Virus record (IMG/VR): IMGVR_UViG_3300020166_000027
Span: 1-58,496 of that record
Length of the DNA: 58,496 nt
DNA from: a virus
Reading direction: 5' to 3' (one strand)
In this document: positions 1-5,481 of the stretch, in pieces
How the letters are laid out: each line of letters opens with the position of its first letter
How positions within the stretch are numbered: position 1 is the stretch's first letter
Position numbers and translations under genes: made by a program
The notes under the pieces: model-generated
Database searches by the model: none
Seen by the model: only the letters and a program-made list of their open reading frames with translations
Told to the model about the DNA's origin: nothing

Positions 1-1933
1 ACCTTTGTGATAAATTGGTTTGATCATTTGAAAGATTTGCCGATATTTTTTGCTGGGCTACATTTATAATTATTTCATTAGAAGATATCACAGGTTTAGT
101 TATAGTTACTTTTTTTACTAATTCTTTTGCGGCAATGCCGGCCTTTTCATAGTCAGCTCTTTTAGCAACATCTTTAGAAGCTTCGTGTATTAACAATGTT
201 TTCTTTTTAGCCTGGTCGGCATCAAATTCATTTAATTTGGTTTGAACCGAATCTTTTTTGGCCTTTTCTATTTTTTCATTTTTTTCAACATTTGGGTCTG
301 TGCTATTTAAATCCCTAGCTAAAATAGCCGCATCAATACCGACTGATGCAGCTGTTCCTGGTCCCGGCAAAATTGCCGCTGTGCCAGATGCAATTTCCAT
401 TGCGGCGCCTGTGAAATCTCCTTGCATAACTTCACTTACTGCAAAAGCTAAAGCAGGTATAAGGCCAAGGCCAAATGGCAATTTTTTAGCGGCGGACTTT
501 GCAGCTGCTTTTGCCACTTGTTTTGCGGCTATTTTTGATGCGGCTTTTGATGCGGCTTTTTCAGCCGCTGCTAGAGATGCTTTTGCAGTTTTTCCGGCAT
601 TTATTTGAGCGGCAGTTGCTGCAGCTTTTTCAGTCGCTTCTTTAATTAATTGTTGTCTTATTGCTTTATTTAAAGCCGCTTTAGGCGTAGGTTTTACATT
701 TAAATTAGCTGGCGGGTTTGATTTAGGCGCAGTAGGCGCAGTAGGCGCTGATTTAGGCGCAGTAGATGAATTAGCCGGTATAGCTGGTGGTGATAATTTC
801 GGTGCAGTAGGCGCTGGTGGTGATAATTTCGGTGCAGTAGGCGCTGTAGGTGCTGATTTCGGTGCAGTAGGCGCTGTAGGTGCTGATTTCGGTGCAGTAG
901 GCGCTGATTTAGGCGCAGTGGATGAATTAGGCGCAGTGGATGAATTAGGCGCAGTGGATGAATTAGGCGGTATAGCTGGTGGTGATAATTTTGGTGCAGT
1001 AGATGCTGATTTAGGTACATTTGGAATACTAGTGGGTCTTACTTTTGGGGGTGACCCAATCTTTGCTTTTGGTGCAGTAGGTTTTTTAAACATTTTTCTA
1101 ATTTTATTAAGTGCACCTAAGCCAACCCCTAAGCCGGCCCCTTTTAATAGCCAACCACCTAGCTTCCTAAATAATCCCTCTCCGCTTTTGCCAGCATTTT
1201 CGTCTTTATCGTCTTCATTATTTTGATTATTACCAAGGGCAGAAGCAAATAAACCGCGATTGACTATTTTTTTAGCTTCGCGCTGATCTTCGAGATTGTC
1301 TAAATTCTTTAGTTTTTTGGCCTTAATATAATCGGCAATAGTTTTATTTAAAGTAACTAATTCATTTAATATATCTTTTTGAATGTCTATATTATTTTCT
1401 GTTAACAGAACAAGAGTTTTTACACTTTTTGATTGGAATGCATTGCCAACAGCAGTAAATGGCATTTTTAATGCACCTTTTATTGCTGTCTTAGCTTTAT
1501 CAAGACCACCGCCTAGCATTTGACCTGGAATAGTTGCTATATTTTTAGCGCTATTAATAATGCCGCCCAATGCGCGACGAGGAGCTCCTAAAATATTAGC
1601 AGTTACTGCAGCACCTCTGGTTATTGGGTTATTTGCAAATTGTTCTTTAATACGGTTACCAAAAGACATCTTGCCAGATATACCACTCTTTTTTATATCC
1701 GTAAGAAGTGCGTTCGAAAGAGTGACAGCTTTAATAAGTTCTTCTTGTTTATCTATGAATAAATCAAATTGTGATGTTAAAGAATAAAGAGATTGATTTG
1801 ATGAAATACTATTATTAGTTTGTGAAGTATTTGCGGCTAGTATGGAAATGCTTTCGGCCAGGCTTGCAAGATCTATTTGCAAGTCTCCATTCTCAGCTGA
1901 GAGCCGGGCATTAATATTTGCTAACGTAGCCAT
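1..1933 (-). CDS. Probable tail tape measure protein, N-terminal part (runs off the window)
   Basis: An open frame of 644 codons runs without a stop from ATG 1933 to the window edge, so the C-terminus is missing. The start overlaps the stop of the upstream frameshift extension (TAATG) and has AGAGG about 8 bases ahead. Visible parts: a helical, polar N-terminal region (residues 1-270); a Pro/Ala/Ser/Thr linker with repeated TAPKSAP and TAPKLSPP units (about 283-411); an Ala/Lys-rich helical stretch (about 431-484); and a Gly/Ala-rich hydrophobic segment (about 481-538, containing GDFTGAAMEIASGTA) of a type I associate with phage tail-length or hub proteins. It lies directly after the tail chaperone with its frameshift extension, which in lambda-type and many other tails is the tape measure position. 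T4 gp29 is about 590 residues, so this protein is already longer. Tape measure is inferred mainly from position and composition; a large hub or injected internal protein is the alternative. Confidence 0.6.
   Translation of the reverse strand, partial: MATLANINARLSAENGDLQIDLASLAESISILAANTSQTNNSISSNQSLYSLTSQFDLFIDKQEELIKAVTLSNALLTDIKKSGISGKMSFGNRIKEQFANNPITRGAAVTANILGAPRRALGGIINSAKNIATIPGQMLGGGLDKAKTAIKGALKMPFTAVGNAFQSKSVKTLVLLTENNIDIQKDILNELVTLNKTIADYIKAKKLKNLDNLEDQREAKKIVNRGLFASALGNNQNNEDDKDENAGKSGEGLFRKLGGWLLKGAGLGVGLGALNKIRKMFKKPTAPKAKIGSPPKVRPTSIPNVPKSASTAPKLSPPAIPPNSSTAPNSSTAPNSSTAPKSAPTAPKSAPTAPTAPKSAPTAPTAPKLSPPAPTAPKLSPPAIPANSSTAPKSAPTAPTAPKSNPPANLNVKPTPKAALNKAIRQQLIKEATEKAAATAAQINAGKTAKASLAAAEKAASKAASKIAAKQVAKAAAKSAAKKLPFGLGLIPALAFAVSEVMQGDFTGAAMEIASGTAAILPGPGTAASVGIDAAILARDLNSTDPNVEKNEKIEKAKKDSVQTKLNEFDADQAKKKTLLIHEASKDVAKRADYEKAGIAAKELVKKVTITKPVISSNEIIINVAQQKISANLSNDQTNLSQR
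716..1012 (-). repeat. In-frame tandem repeats encoding a Pro-rich linker
   Basis: On the plus strand the block shows three copies of an 18-base unit (gatgaattaggcgcagtg), two copies of a 30-base unit around 841-900 and two of another 30-base unit around 781-840. All unit lengths are multiples of three, so copy-number change lengthens or shortens the linker of the minus-strand protein without breaking the frame. Confidence 0.85.
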
Positions 1934-2822
1934 TACATTTTCCTCTTAATTTTCTCTGCTTGTTCTTCTAAGTGTTGTATTAATAAAGCCACATAAATTT
2001 CTCGTTCCCAGGGCATCATATTCTCCAACTCATGTAGAGAATAATTATGATGTTGCATTAACCCAAAGTTGGTCTTATAATGATTATATAATGAATCATT
2101 ACTCGACCATATTAAAAAAAATCGGTAAGATTCCGGATAAGTATTTCACTAGTATGTTTACAATTTTCACATGTATGGGTATGCCTTTTTTCTAAAACCG
2201 GCATTTTTTCAATATAAGATTTTATAAGATCGAATTGTGTGCTAGTCATAGATCCTAAAAAGTTAATAATTTCTTCTCTAGTCTCATCTTTAAATAATAT
2301 TTTTTCTTCTTCCGTTTCAAGTGAGACTAAACAGTCCGCCATTAATTCAATTGTCTGAATAGTTTCGGATTCGGTTGTCATAAGTAAAGAATTTTCAATT
2401 GTTTTAATATACGTTGGCCATTGCAATTCAACACAAATATCTTTGGTAATATTAATTTTATTTGATATTTCTGGTATAGTTACATTTACATCGTCAATAG
2501 TCATGTTTACTTCATTTTGGTGTTCGCATTCGACGCATGTTACAATAATATCTACTGATTCTCCAACAGATTTGGCTCTAATTTTTGTAAAAATATATTC
2601 AATATCAAATAATTTTAATTTATCTATATCAAGATCTTCTTGTATGCATGCACGTAACGTATCAACAACAGCATTCAACGCCGCATTTTGATCTTGGGAT
2701 TCAAACGCCAACATTAGAACTTTTTCTTCTTTTACAAGATATGGTCTAAATTTAACTGTTTGGTTAGTTGACGGAATTGTTAATTCATATTTTGGGATAT
2801 CATTCAGTTTAGGCAATGCCAT
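1933..2822 (-). CDS. Predicted -1 frameshift product: tail chaperone fused to a 60-residue extension
   Basis: The gp26-like frame ends GAT TTT TTT TAA. A -1 slip on T TTT TTT (2121-2115) lets translation continue as TTA ATA TGG and on for 60 more codons, to TAA at 1935-1933, giving a product of about 296 residues. The extension has no good start or ribosome site of its own near its beginning. It carries the segment YSLHELENMMPWEREIYVA followed by a charged helix (LEEQAEKIKRK). An aromatic/PWE segment like this is what I expect of the 'T' part of tail assembly chaperones. It ends exactly at the tape measure start. In lambda, gpG and gpGT arise the same way and both bind the tape measure. The open frame and slippery run are seen; the frameshift itself is inferred. 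Confidence 0.72.
2112..2822 (-). CDS. 26: gp26-like baseplate hub / tail assembly chaperone
   Basis: This 236-residue protein resembles the T4 gp26 family, whose T4 member is 208 residues. It starts with a beta-type segment (KYELTIPSTNQTVKFRPYLV), followed by a helical middle. It has two CxxC pairs, Cys96/Cys99 and Cys218/Cys221, which could form a zinc ribbon. The start overlaps the tail tube stop as TAATG, so the two are translationally coupled. The protein ends in Asp-Phe-Phe encoded by the eight-T run that forms the slippery site before its stop. T4 gp26 was described as a hub or hub-assembly protein. Its place between tube and tape measure, plus the frameshift signal, argue that here it acts as the short form of a tail chaperone. 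Family assignment is from recalled sequence character, not an alignment. Confidence 0.75.
   Translation of the reverse strand: MALPKLNDIPKYELTIPSTNQTVKFRPYLVKEEKVLMLAFESQDQNAALNAVVDTLRACIQEDLDIDKLKLFDIEYIFTKIRAKSVGESVDIIVTCVECEHQNEVNMTIDDVNVTIPEISNKINITKDICVELQWPTYIKTIENSLLMTTESETIQTIELMADCLVSLETEEEKILFKDETREEIINFLGSMTSTQFDLIKSYIEKMPVLEKRHTHTCENCKHTSEILIRNLTDFF
2115..2121 (-). promoter_or_regulatory. Slippery heptamer T TTT TTT before a stop codon
   Basis: Read on the minus strand the sequence is GAT TTT TTT TAA, with eight consecutive T. Both tRNAs can re-pair perfectly after a -1 move, and the 0-frame codon that follows is UAA, which favours pausing. The -1 frame stays open for 60 codons. 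I did not identify a clear downstream stem-loop or pseudoknot by eye. Confidence 0.7.
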
Positions 2823-3352
2823 TATAAGGGGCTCCAGTTATAGTAAGACAATTGGACATTTAATTCTACTAGTCCGTTAGTCGTTTCATTATTAAATTCA
2901 TTAGCATTCATTGTTGTAGGATATGCGCCTTCTAATCGCACACTATAAGGGCTTATCATTCCATTAGATTCGGTTTTTTGTTGTGCGCGTAAAATAACAT
3001 CTTTTTGATAATTTGTTTTATATGATATTTCGTAGGTCGTTTGGTTAACAATTAAATTCATCCAAAGATCAAAATATTTTCGTATTGCATAATCATTTGT
3101 AATATTAAACGATAAAGATATATCATCTTGCATAAATGTGTATGGAACTTTTTCTGCTTTAGGACCAATATATCGTTCAGCAGTAGCAATTTGTCTACCC
3201 GGAAGATTCATAGCCTTACACGTAATATTTTTTTCATTAAGTGTTAAATTGGAACCAGCTATTGCCGGAAGTTCAATTGAATAAAGATTGGGCATGGCTA
3301 AACCGCCCCTGCCACCAATAGTAGATAAAAAATCATCTATTCTAAAAGTCAT
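2822..3352 (-). CDS. 19: gp19-like tail tube protein
   Basis: This 176-residue protein begins MTFRIDDFLS and shows the T4 gp19/gp54 tube fold pattern. An N-terminal segment leads to LYSIELPAI, then the ITCKAMNLPGRQIAT region, the aromatic VPYTFMQDDISLSF strand, and a C-terminal strand ending in NVQLSYYNWSPL. T4 gp19 is 163 residues, so the length fits. I place the start at ATG 3352, which overlaps the upstream stop as TAATG; an in-frame ATG at 3442 would add 30 residues that overlap the upstream gene and look unlike tube proteins. The product should polymerise into the inner tail tube through which DNA passes. The neighbours (chaperone, tape measure) are its assembly partners. Confidence 0.8.
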   Translation of the reverse strand: MTFRIDDFLSTIGGRGGLAMPNLYSIELPAIAGSNLTLNEKNITCKAMNLPGRQIATAERYIGPKAEKVPYTFMQDDISLSFNITNDYAIRKYFDLWMNLIVNQTTYEISYKTNYQKDVILRAQQKTESNGMISPYSVRLEGAYPTTMNANEFNNETTNGLVELNVQLSYYNWSPL

Positions 3353-3939
3353 TAGCTTATAGCCTTTCGTGATTCCGCATAGACAGTAGATTTGCTTGCT
3401 TTTTGGAAATCCGCGGTCGGTAAAAAGGTGGCAATTTCCCATTCGGGTGGTGGCACATAAGCAAAGCGGCTACGAGTATGTGCTGTTAAATATCTTTTAA
3501 AGCATGGCTTAAAATATTTTAAAGAAGTTGCTTTTTGCAGCATATCATACTTTACTTTAAATTTAGTAGTTTCGTCATATTTTGAATTATTTGTAATTTC
3601 TACTAATCCATCAAGCATTTTGGCTCTAAGTACAGGTGGAAGATAATGTAAATTTAACCCAGTAAATCCGCCCGGAGCTTTTCCTACAATAATAGTTAAA
3701 GGGAAAGAATCATAATATGGAAGAGTATCTTTTGTTTTAGGATCATAAAAGAACATAAACATATTACCCACAATAGGTTTATTACCTAATTCGAGGGTTT
3801 CATCTTTCAAAAGAGCAGAACGATTTATATTACGCATGCTCTGCGCTTTTTTGCGAAACCACGCAATTGATTCTTTTGTTCGTGGAGTTATCCCGGCTTT
3901 GAATGCTTCTAACTCTAATTTATTAAATATATCTGTCAT
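3352..3939 (-). CDS. Conserved T4-like virion protein of unknown role
   Basis: A 195-residue protein I recognise only as a type found in marine T4-like phages. It has a basic helical N-terminus (TPRTKESIAWFRKKAQSM), then GNMFMFFYDPKTKDTLPYYD and FPLTIIV, followed by GGFTGLNLHYLPPVLRAKML and a basic C-terminal half (KRYLTAHTRSRFAYVPPPEW). No signal peptide or membrane segment is visible. It follows the gp4-like nuclease and precedes the tail tube with a TAATG overlap. In T4, genes 2 and 4 are neighbours, so a gp2-like DNA-end or head-tail joining role is possible, but I see no sequence support for it. The start at 3939 sits immediately after an exact late-promoter octamer, leaving no room for a leader. 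Confidence 0.7.
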   Translation of the reverse strand: MTDIFNKLELEAFKAGITPRTKESIAWFRKKAQSMRNINRSALLKDETLELGNKPIVGNMFMFFYDPKTKDTLPYYDSFPLTIIVGKAPGGFTGLNLHYLPPVLRAKMLDGLVEITNNSKYDETTKFKVKYDMLQKATSLKYFKPCFKRYLTAHTRSRFAYVPPPEWEIATFLPTADFQKASKSTVYAESRKAIS

Positions 3940-3991: not shown

Positions 3992-4489
3992 TTATAGCTT
4001 TTTTTTCTTTTTTGTCATAGGCTTCAAAGGTTTTAGTGGTTTCATTTTAGGCATAATACCCATTTCATTTAATGTATTTTCTGTCCAAATAACAAAATTC
4101 CAACCCCTATCTTTAGCATAATTATTTGCAGCTTTCCATTTGTTAACATTCTTAACATAGGTTAGCCCCTCTTGCAAATATTGTTTAGTTTTACGTCCAG
4201 GATTTTTTGGTGGGTGGGTTTCTTTTTCTGGTTTAATTTCTACTAATAAAGTTTTGTTGTCCACAAAGGTTATTTTTAAATCAACATAATATCTATGATA
4301 TTTTTTATCAACATCATAAAAATATGGCACTACAACTTCTTCTGAGCTCCAAGATTTGACATTACTATTTTGATCGCACCATTTGAAGCAATGGCGCTCC
4401 CATAAGGACCGATACACTATAGCAGTATAATCACCGCCATATTTATTAGGATTTTTTGGAACAAATTTGCCCGAATATGTTTTTTTCAT
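3992..4489 (-). CDS. 4: Head completion nuclease, gp4-like
   Basis: From ATG 4489 the protein is 165 residues (T4 gp4 is about 150). It begins MKKTYSGKFVPKNPNKYGG and carries a TnsA/restriction-like nuclease pattern: RSLWERHCFKWCD (Glu in the first helix), VPYFYDVDKKYHRYYVDLKI (the Asp of YYVDL) and TLLVEIKPEKE (the ExK motif). This fits the PD-(D/E)xK-like fold predicted for gp4 homologues. The C-terminus is a Lys/Pro-rich tail ending in five Lys and Leu. In T4 gp4 is a late head-completion protein. The frame is open upstream to 4612, but that extension overlaps the divergent gene and has no matching character. No strong ribosome site precedes 4489, which weakens the start slightly. Confidence 0.8.
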   Translation of the reverse strand: MKKTYSGKFVPKNPNKYGGDYTAIVYRSLWERHCFKWCDQNSNVKSWSSEEVVVPYFYDVDKKYHRYYVDLKITFVDNKTLLVEIKPEKETHPPKNPGRKTKQYLQEGLTYVKNVNKWKAANNYAKDRGWNFVIWTENTLNEMGIMPKMKPLKPLKPMTKKKKKL

Positions 4490-4494
4490 TTTTA

Positions 4495-4502
4495 TATAAA
4501 TA
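4495..4502 (+). promoter_or_regulatory. T4-type late promoter octamer
   Basis: An exact TATAAATA lies in the 65-base divergent gap. Expected start of transcription is near 4508, giving a leader of about 47 bases to the tube-cap gene at 4555. Confidence 0.75.
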
Positions 4503-4536
4503 AATACTAGTAAGATGTTTTCATTGACTCTACCTC

Positions 4537-4544
4537 TATTTATT
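4537..4544 (-). promoter_or_regulatory. Near-consensus late promoter for gp4
   Basis: AATAAATA on the minus strand matches seven of eight bases of TATAAATA. It would start near 4531 with a leader of about 42 bases to ATG 4489. Confidence 0.4.
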
Positions 4545-4554
4545 GGATAATTAA

Positions 4555-5481
4555 ATGGCCGAATCTCAAAAATTACAGTTTCCTCTAGAGCGCACGGATA
4601 AGTATAAAGCAAAGATTATTTTTTCAGTCTCAGTAACTAATCCACCTAGCGTAAGCAATGGCGATCCGCGCGGCCGAAACTTAGATGGGCAAGTAGATAT
4701 AACACAACTTGGAATTGGTGGTTCGCAAGAATCCGGTAGTGCTGTGTCACAAAATACAAATGGAAATCAAAGTATCAATGTTGGAAAAAAGGTAGTATTA
4801 TATATGCCACCTTCTTTACAAATTAATGATGGAGTAGATATTGGTCCAGTTGATCTTATGGCATTTGGCGCTGGAATCAATAAAGCGTTAGGAGCAGTGG
4901 GTGGGGCCAGTACTTTGGCGGCATTATTTGATGCTGGTAAACAAGAAGCAAGTGATATGCTTACTGCTATCAGTGGTAATGCTTCTCAAGATATGGCGAG
5001 GGCGTTAATTGCCCGGTACTCTACCAAATTTTTAAGTGAAGGAGTTGCTGGCGCTGTTACATCAGCATTACAAACTACTCCAAATCCAAATACTAGAGCA
5101 ATTTTTAGATCTGTAAATATGCGGGAATTTAGCTTTATTTTTAAATTGCAACCAACAACACAAGATGAAAGCGATGCGATTACAAATATTATAAAGTTTT
5201 TTAGAACAGAGCTTTATCCAGAGACTATAAAAGAAGCATCGACAGGACTACCTGTCGCATATAGATTCCCAAATAAATTTGATATTAAGTTGGTATATGG
5301 CTCTAGCGAAAACCGCTTAGCAACTAAGATTAAAAAATCTCATTTAAAAAGCTTTAGTGCAACATATAATCCTAGCAGCATGTCCTTTTTAGACGGGGGC
5401 AAATTTTCGGAAGTAGATATTTCTATGACATTTATGGAAGAAGCCACACTCACTAAAGACGATATTTTGGGAGGTTACTAA
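4555..5481 (+). CDS. Baseplate tail-tube junction/cap protein (gp48/gp54-like)
   Basis: A 308-residue protein with an N-terminal beta segment, a Gly/Ala-rich helical middle (about 90-170) and a C-terminal half characteristic of the T4-like cap proteins. The latter shows TPNPNTRAIFRSVNMREFSF, a helix DESDAITNIIKFFRTELYPE and a closing strand SEVDISMTFMEE. T4 gp48 is 364 and gp54 320 residues. These proteins sit on the hub, start tube polymerisation and contact the tape measure. The gene opens the plus-strand baseplate operon behind a late promoter and overlaps gene 53 by TAATG, with GGAGG before that next start. gp48 versus gp54 cannot be settled by eye; no second copy is visible in this window. 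Confidence 0.7.
   Translation: MAESQKLQFPLERTDKYKAKIIFSVSVTNPPSVSNGDPRGRNLDGQVDITQLGIGGSQESGSAVSQNTNGNQSINVGKKVVLYMPPSLQINDGVDIGPVDLMAFGAGINKALGAVGGASTLAALFDAGKQEASDMLTAISGNASQDMARALIARYSTKFLSEGVAGAVTSALQTTPNPNTRAIFRSVNMREFSFIFKLQPTTQDESDAITNIIKFFRTELYPETIKEASTGLPVAYRFPNKFDIKLVYGSSENRLATKIKKSHLKSFSATYNPSSMSFLDGGKFSEVDISMTFMEEATLTKDDILGGY

Follow-up and report, generated by a model that had tools for sequence, protein, structure and literature searches.

A conserved -1 slippery site at the end of gp26 predicted to give short and long tail chaperones in T4-like phages

The tail gene gp26 and the 'gp51' open reading frame downstream of it are very probably one gene decoded in two ways, giving a short and a long putative chaperone by a -1 slip. 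The locus lies in a stretch of 58,496 nucleotides from a marine T4-like virus (IMG/VR record IMGVR_UViG_3300020166_000027, positions 1 to 58,496), which is called the window below. Comparison of homologues revealed a kept slippery site, a coding -1 frame, no separate start, an enrichment of hairpins downstream and colinearity with T4 gp51. The features of the locus are as follows.

2822..3442, minus strand: tail tube protein (phrog_45 'tail tube', E 7e-30, residues 31-205)
2112..2822, minus strand: gp26, putative short-form chaperone (TAC-N, 'G' form), 236 aa in the zero frame (PF12322, phrog_150)
2115..2121, minus strand: slippery heptamer T_TTT_TTT, with the zero-frame stop TAA (2112-2114) directly 3'
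2070..2109, minus strand: predicted RNA hairpin, a probable frameshift stimulator, beginning 5 nt 3' of the heptamer
1933..2115, minus strand: -1 frame extension of 60 codons and a stop (phrog_634), putative long form (TAC-NC, 'GT' form)
2..1933, minus strand: presumed tape measure gene, judged by its position, its length and a hydrophobic stretch within the C-terminal half

The slippery site and its conservation

In profile searches, the window gp26 matched PF12322 (E 7e-51, residues 10-236) and phrog_150 (E 4.4e-53), and its AF2 model showed a pLDDT of 91. The 3' end of the gene reads ...ACC GAT TTT TTT TAA, with a run of 8 T at the slip site. A -1 slip leads into 60 codons (1936-2115) reading LIWSSNDSLYNHYKTNFGLMQHHNYSLHELENMMPWEREIYVALLIQHLEEQAEKIKRKM, and the stop of this frame (TAA, 1933-1935) overlaps the ATG of the next gene (1931-1933) by one base, A. 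An earlier note on this DNA had described this gene end, an extension of exactly 60 codons stopping within the next start codon, and a fusion of 296 residues; the coordinates, the codon count and the frame read through the junction bore out all three.

The stop of the tail tube ORF overlaps the gp26 ATG, and the true tail tube start is probably inside the ORF. Both gp26 junctions are TAATG overlaps (window 2822 and 1933), suggesting translational coupling of the tail tube, chaperone and tape measure genes. The window cuts off the presumed tape measure gene, which encodes 704 aa in the near-identical contig L003. Pfam-type and phrog profile searches gave no family match naming it a tape measure; the gene just downstream of the frameshift-type gene in Caulobacter phage Cr30 is annotated as a tape measure. 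A tract of Pro/Ser/Thr/Ala-rich repeats was observed in the presumed tape measure gene (window 700-1100, minus strand), and the repeat number differs in L003. On the same strand, a gp4-type head closure protein (window 3992-4612) also matches the N-terminal domain of TnsA-like endonucleases (PF08722, E 1.5e-17).

Subsequently, 182 loci were examined, comprising IMG/VR homologues from two scans and annotated phages. In the first IMG/VR scan, the run and the -1 frame were kept in 80 of 80 homologues, as far as the contigs reach. T_TTT_TTN was present at the gp26 end in 170 of the 171 non-T4-type homologues, which indicates that the slip site is not due to chance. The last base of the heptamer was C in 100, T in 42, G in 17 and A in 11 of them. 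The -1 frame was open and conserved in all non-T4-type homologues not cut by a contig end. Thus the slippery run and the frame were both kept in related marine phages, a check that the earlier note had suggested. Frameshift-type genes were also found in Caulobacter phage Cr30, Cronobacter phage LPCS28, Stenotrophomonas phage BUCT608 and Vibrio phage CZ01, whereas T_TTT_TTN was not found at the end of the T4-type genes among the 182 loci.

The exception was vibriophage K476 (locus L106, around 4223), in which the gp26 relative lacks the canonical heptamer and reads ctt ttt gcg TAATG. This relative may use stop-start coupling, because the next small ORF overlaps its stop and no evident tape measure gene adjoins the locus.

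For quantitative comparison, 78 non-redundant frameshift-type lineages, less than 90% identical to each other, were used, and all 78 carried T_TTT_TTN. The residue before the two phenylalanines varied (D in 41, S in 29, N in 6 and A in 2 lineages); nevertheless, the codon preceding TTT ended in T in 78 of 78, against a third-position T background of 0.38. The first Phe codon was TTT in every lineage, compared with a TTT:TTC ratio of 569:212 (TTC 27%) elsewhere in these genes. At other codon positions of the gp26 homologues, an in-frame T_TTT_TTN occurred only 6 times in 18,278.

The -1 frame and the RNA downstream

Over extension codons 2-19 of the 78 lineages, the dN/dS of the -1 frame was 0.125, compared with 1.03 for the zero frame and 1.63 for the +1 frame of the same DNA. 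The window extension matched phrog_634 (E 2.9e-25), as did 25 of 25 aligned extensions, and it also matched the C-terminus of phrog_150. Cyanophage records call the same ORF 'gp51, baseplate hub assembly catalyst'. The extension, described as hidden by the earlier note, is accordingly not unknown, while its proposed identity as the C-terminal part of the long form was supported.

The RNA just 3' of the heptamer was then compared with shuffled sequences. The window hairpin had a dG of -15.3, with z -3.8 against dinucleotide shuffles and z -4.3 against synonymous shuffles. Over the 78 lineages, the mean z against synonymous shuffles was -1.73, and z was below -2 in 36 lineages at this position compared with 3-12 at other positions. 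Among the structured lineages, the first paired base was mostly 4-5 nt past the heptamer. The predicted downstream structure is therefore in excess of what the protein sequence requires. About half of the 78 lineages had no significant simple hairpin downstream, and RNAalifold detected no conserved fold over the 78 lineages or over their two main subgroups. The hairpins are lineage-specific, and the absence of a common fold is consistent with stimulators that turn over. In the window and many relatives, the heptamer is immediately followed by the zero-frame stop, which comes one codon later in most others.

An internal Shine-Dalgarno stimulator 5' of the heptamer was also considered and rejected. 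Such a sequence occurs in many lineages, and its mean dG was -6.1 compared with -2.1 in other windows of the sequence; however, synonymous shuffles of the region gave -4.7, and on average 42% of the shuffles were as strong, so that the signal is explained by conserved residues.

The extension could alternatively be a separate small gene, gp51, with its own start or with re-initiation from stop to start after gp26. It is annotated in this way in the cyanophage records, namely as a separate gene in S-PM2, P-SSM2, Mosig, C48C1, B23 and S-RIM4, and in some lineages (S-PM2, P-SSM2) extension codon 3 or 4 is an ATG. The annotated starts, however, disagree among the records, lying 2 to 74 nt past the gp26 stop. 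Furthermore, 30 of the 78 lineages, the window included, lack any ATG, GTG or TTG among the first 18 extension codons, yet the dN/dS of their -1 frame is still 0.135. Because purifying selection acts from the first codons despite the lack of a start codon, a separately initiated gene is excluded by the sequences of these 30 lineages; in the remaining ones it is unlikely. Across the 78 lineages, we found neither a start codon conserved in position nor a conserved ribosome site for such a gene, which the earlier note had named as a finding that would speak against frameshifting, and Shine-Dalgarno-like sequence was rare upstream of the candidate starts. A separate gene would also leave the conserved heptamer unexplained, and we regard it overall as highly improbable.

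Another route to the long form is transcriptional slippage, in which a U is inserted into the mRNA on the T-run instead of a slip of the ribosome. Bacterial polymerases are known to slip on long T or A runs, and the window has a run of 8 T. On the other hand, the heptamer is TTTTTTC in 100 of 170 homologues, and its six T are generally too few for the polymerase to slip efficiently. All 170 homologues obey the X_XXY_YYZ rule, and the enrichment of hairpins at 4-5 nt fits ribosomal frameshifting. Transcriptional slippage is thus extremely improbable as the source of the long form, and a -1 ribosomal slip is the reading adopted below.

Relation to T4 gp26 and gp51

The predicted 296-aa fusion was aligned with both T4 proteins using hhalign. 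With T4 gp51, the alignment (E 2.7e-20) was continuous through the junction and covered nearly the whole length of gp51, whereas with T4 gp26 (E 1.3e-25) it extended only up to the slip junction. T4 would therefore encode both forms as paralogous genes. Indeed, T4 gp51 itself matched PF12322 over residues 1-201 and phrog_150 over residues 3-248, and gp26 and gp51 matched each other (hhalign E 2.7e-17; BLASTP 2e-6). Judged from these alignments, the window carries gp26 and gp51 as a single frameshifted gene, and T4 carries them as two paralogues.

The long form, which consists of the short form and a C-terminal domain and is colinear with T4 gp51, has the organization of a T4-like chaperone pair with gp26 as the short and gp51 as the long member. 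The window shares the families PF12322, phrog_150 and phrog_634 with this pair, and the N-terminal domain is common to the short and long forms in the window as in T4. In AlphaFold models, gp51 resembled gp26 in the order of its helices and strands and had three C-terminal helices in addition; a T4-type gp51 was taken as the natural stand-in for the 296-aa fusion. Unlike the single frameshifting gene of the window, T4 genes 26 and 51 are separate and divergently oriented, and T4 gp26 keeps the E-F-F residues while its run is broken by a TTC codon (gag TTC TTT).

In a tree, T4 gp26 and T4 gp51 formed clades together, apart from all frameshifting sequences, with support of 94/91; the tree is unrooted and has long branches. 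It is possible, and we propose only tentatively, that a single frameshifting gene, with a slippery site that adjoins or slightly precedes the stop codon and fast-evolving hairpins 4-5 nt downstream, was ancestral across T4-like phages, and that the T4 branch duplicated the gene instead of recoding it. This reading spans Kyanoviridae, Cr30, Menderavirus, Aeh1-type phages and large Vibrio Straboviridae. If it is true, the T4 branch gave up a ratio fixed in translation and gained two genes with independent regulation.

For T4 gp28, the signal of homology to gp26 was weak (hhalign E 0.0019, probability 15%), and no such relation is claimed here. T4 gene 28 (L092, 5343-5900; L086, 9349-9882) gave a phrog_1140 match of 9e-4, and gp28 could be a third, diverged paralogue of gp26.

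Chaperone role and known systems

A conserved -1 slippery site together with a coding -1 frame, as in a lambda G/GT-type pair, was found in this gene. In lambda gpG/gpGT, as in the window, the -1 frameshift lies near the end of the short form and the long form carries a C-terminal domain. The likeness to lambda proposed in the earlier note would extend to gene order, in that tail tube, gp26, extension and presumed tape measure parallel lambda V-G-T-H. The lambda slippery heptamer differs from T_TTT_TTT. That of P2 gpE/gpE+E', T_TTT_TTG, is of the same type as in the window, and P2 is likewise a contractile-tailed phage; the comparison with P2 covered this heptamer, and its protein family is different from that of the window gp26. 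The long:short ratio and the binding partners have been measured in lambda, whereas we infer those of the window, and the likeness drawn here is one of architecture. The lambda G protein binds the tape measure, the recruitment of tube subunits falls to T, and the frameshift efficiency in P2 and its relatives is 2- to 3-fold above that in lambda (review PMC5009743).

A chaperone frameshift at a GTTTTT motif has been reported in Vandenendeviridae and Andersonviridae, where the extension was annotated as a separate gene until recently (PMC12846349). These are other phage families than that of the window; they share a conserved -1 open frame and a poly-T site where the short-form gene ends, a likeness of frame and motif.

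From these systems we infer slipping in vivo, with the following course. The majority of ribosomes would terminate at TAA to give the 236-aa short chaperone, and a minority would slip -1 on T_TTT_TTT to give the 296-aa long form with its extra C-terminal domain, the slip, and hence its efficiency, probably being aided by the stop codon directly downstream and the hairpin 5 nt 3'. By analogy with lambda gpG/gpGT and T4 gp26/gp51, many short and few long copies would coat the tape measure protein, and the extension would recruit tail tube subunits. Neither form would be expected in the virion.

The frameshift might also be real while gp26 and the long form act in hub assembly without binding the tape measure; the likeness to G/GT would then be architectural only. 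Classical T4 work put gp26 and gp51 in hub assembly, and both are listed as hub assembly chaperones (PMC3004832). Moreover, there was no sequence match in the PDB and no significant fold match to solved tail chaperones; the HK97 chaperone 2ob9 ranked third in the PDB fold comparison at a non-significant E of 1.1. The presumed gene order and the predicted two-form decoding, however, equal those of a lambda-type chaperone locus, and Vladimirov, Gautam & Davidson (2022, Virology 566:9-15) independently identified the tail assembly chaperones of T4-like phages, as stated in two papers citing them (PMC10885494, PMC12846349). We consider a role confined to hub assembly unlikely, and the analogy argues for gp26 and the long form being tail chaperones.

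The recasting of gp26 as a tail chaperone, put forward in the earlier note, was accordingly supported by the kept slip site, the -1 frame and the gene order; the idea is not new, since gp26 and gp51 were published as T4-type tail chaperones in 2022, as the citing papers state. One of these papers states that some T4-like phages do without frameshifting and carry a short gene beside a longer one that encodes the fusion (PMC10885494), the other that the short-form genes of T4-like phages are already known to contain poly-T frameshift signals (PMC12846349).

Cyanophage gp51 has been described as reaching just ~20% of the T4 gp51 length, and Aeromonas phage Aeh1 as being without gp51 (PMC3037559). 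We found an unannotated -1 extension after gp26 in Aeh1 (L107, 4208-4384), reading RLTLVNDSVYDLF.... Both the short cyanophage gp51 and the 'absent' Aeh1 gp51 are accounted for, because the missing ~200 residues are gp26, joined by frameshifting. The stimulatory hairpins and this recovery of an Aeh1 gp51 may be unreported so far. Many marine phage records give gp26 and gp51 as two genes or omit gp51, and could be corrected. Furthermore, ribosomal recoding and gene duplication can be compared here as two natural routes to the same protein pair.
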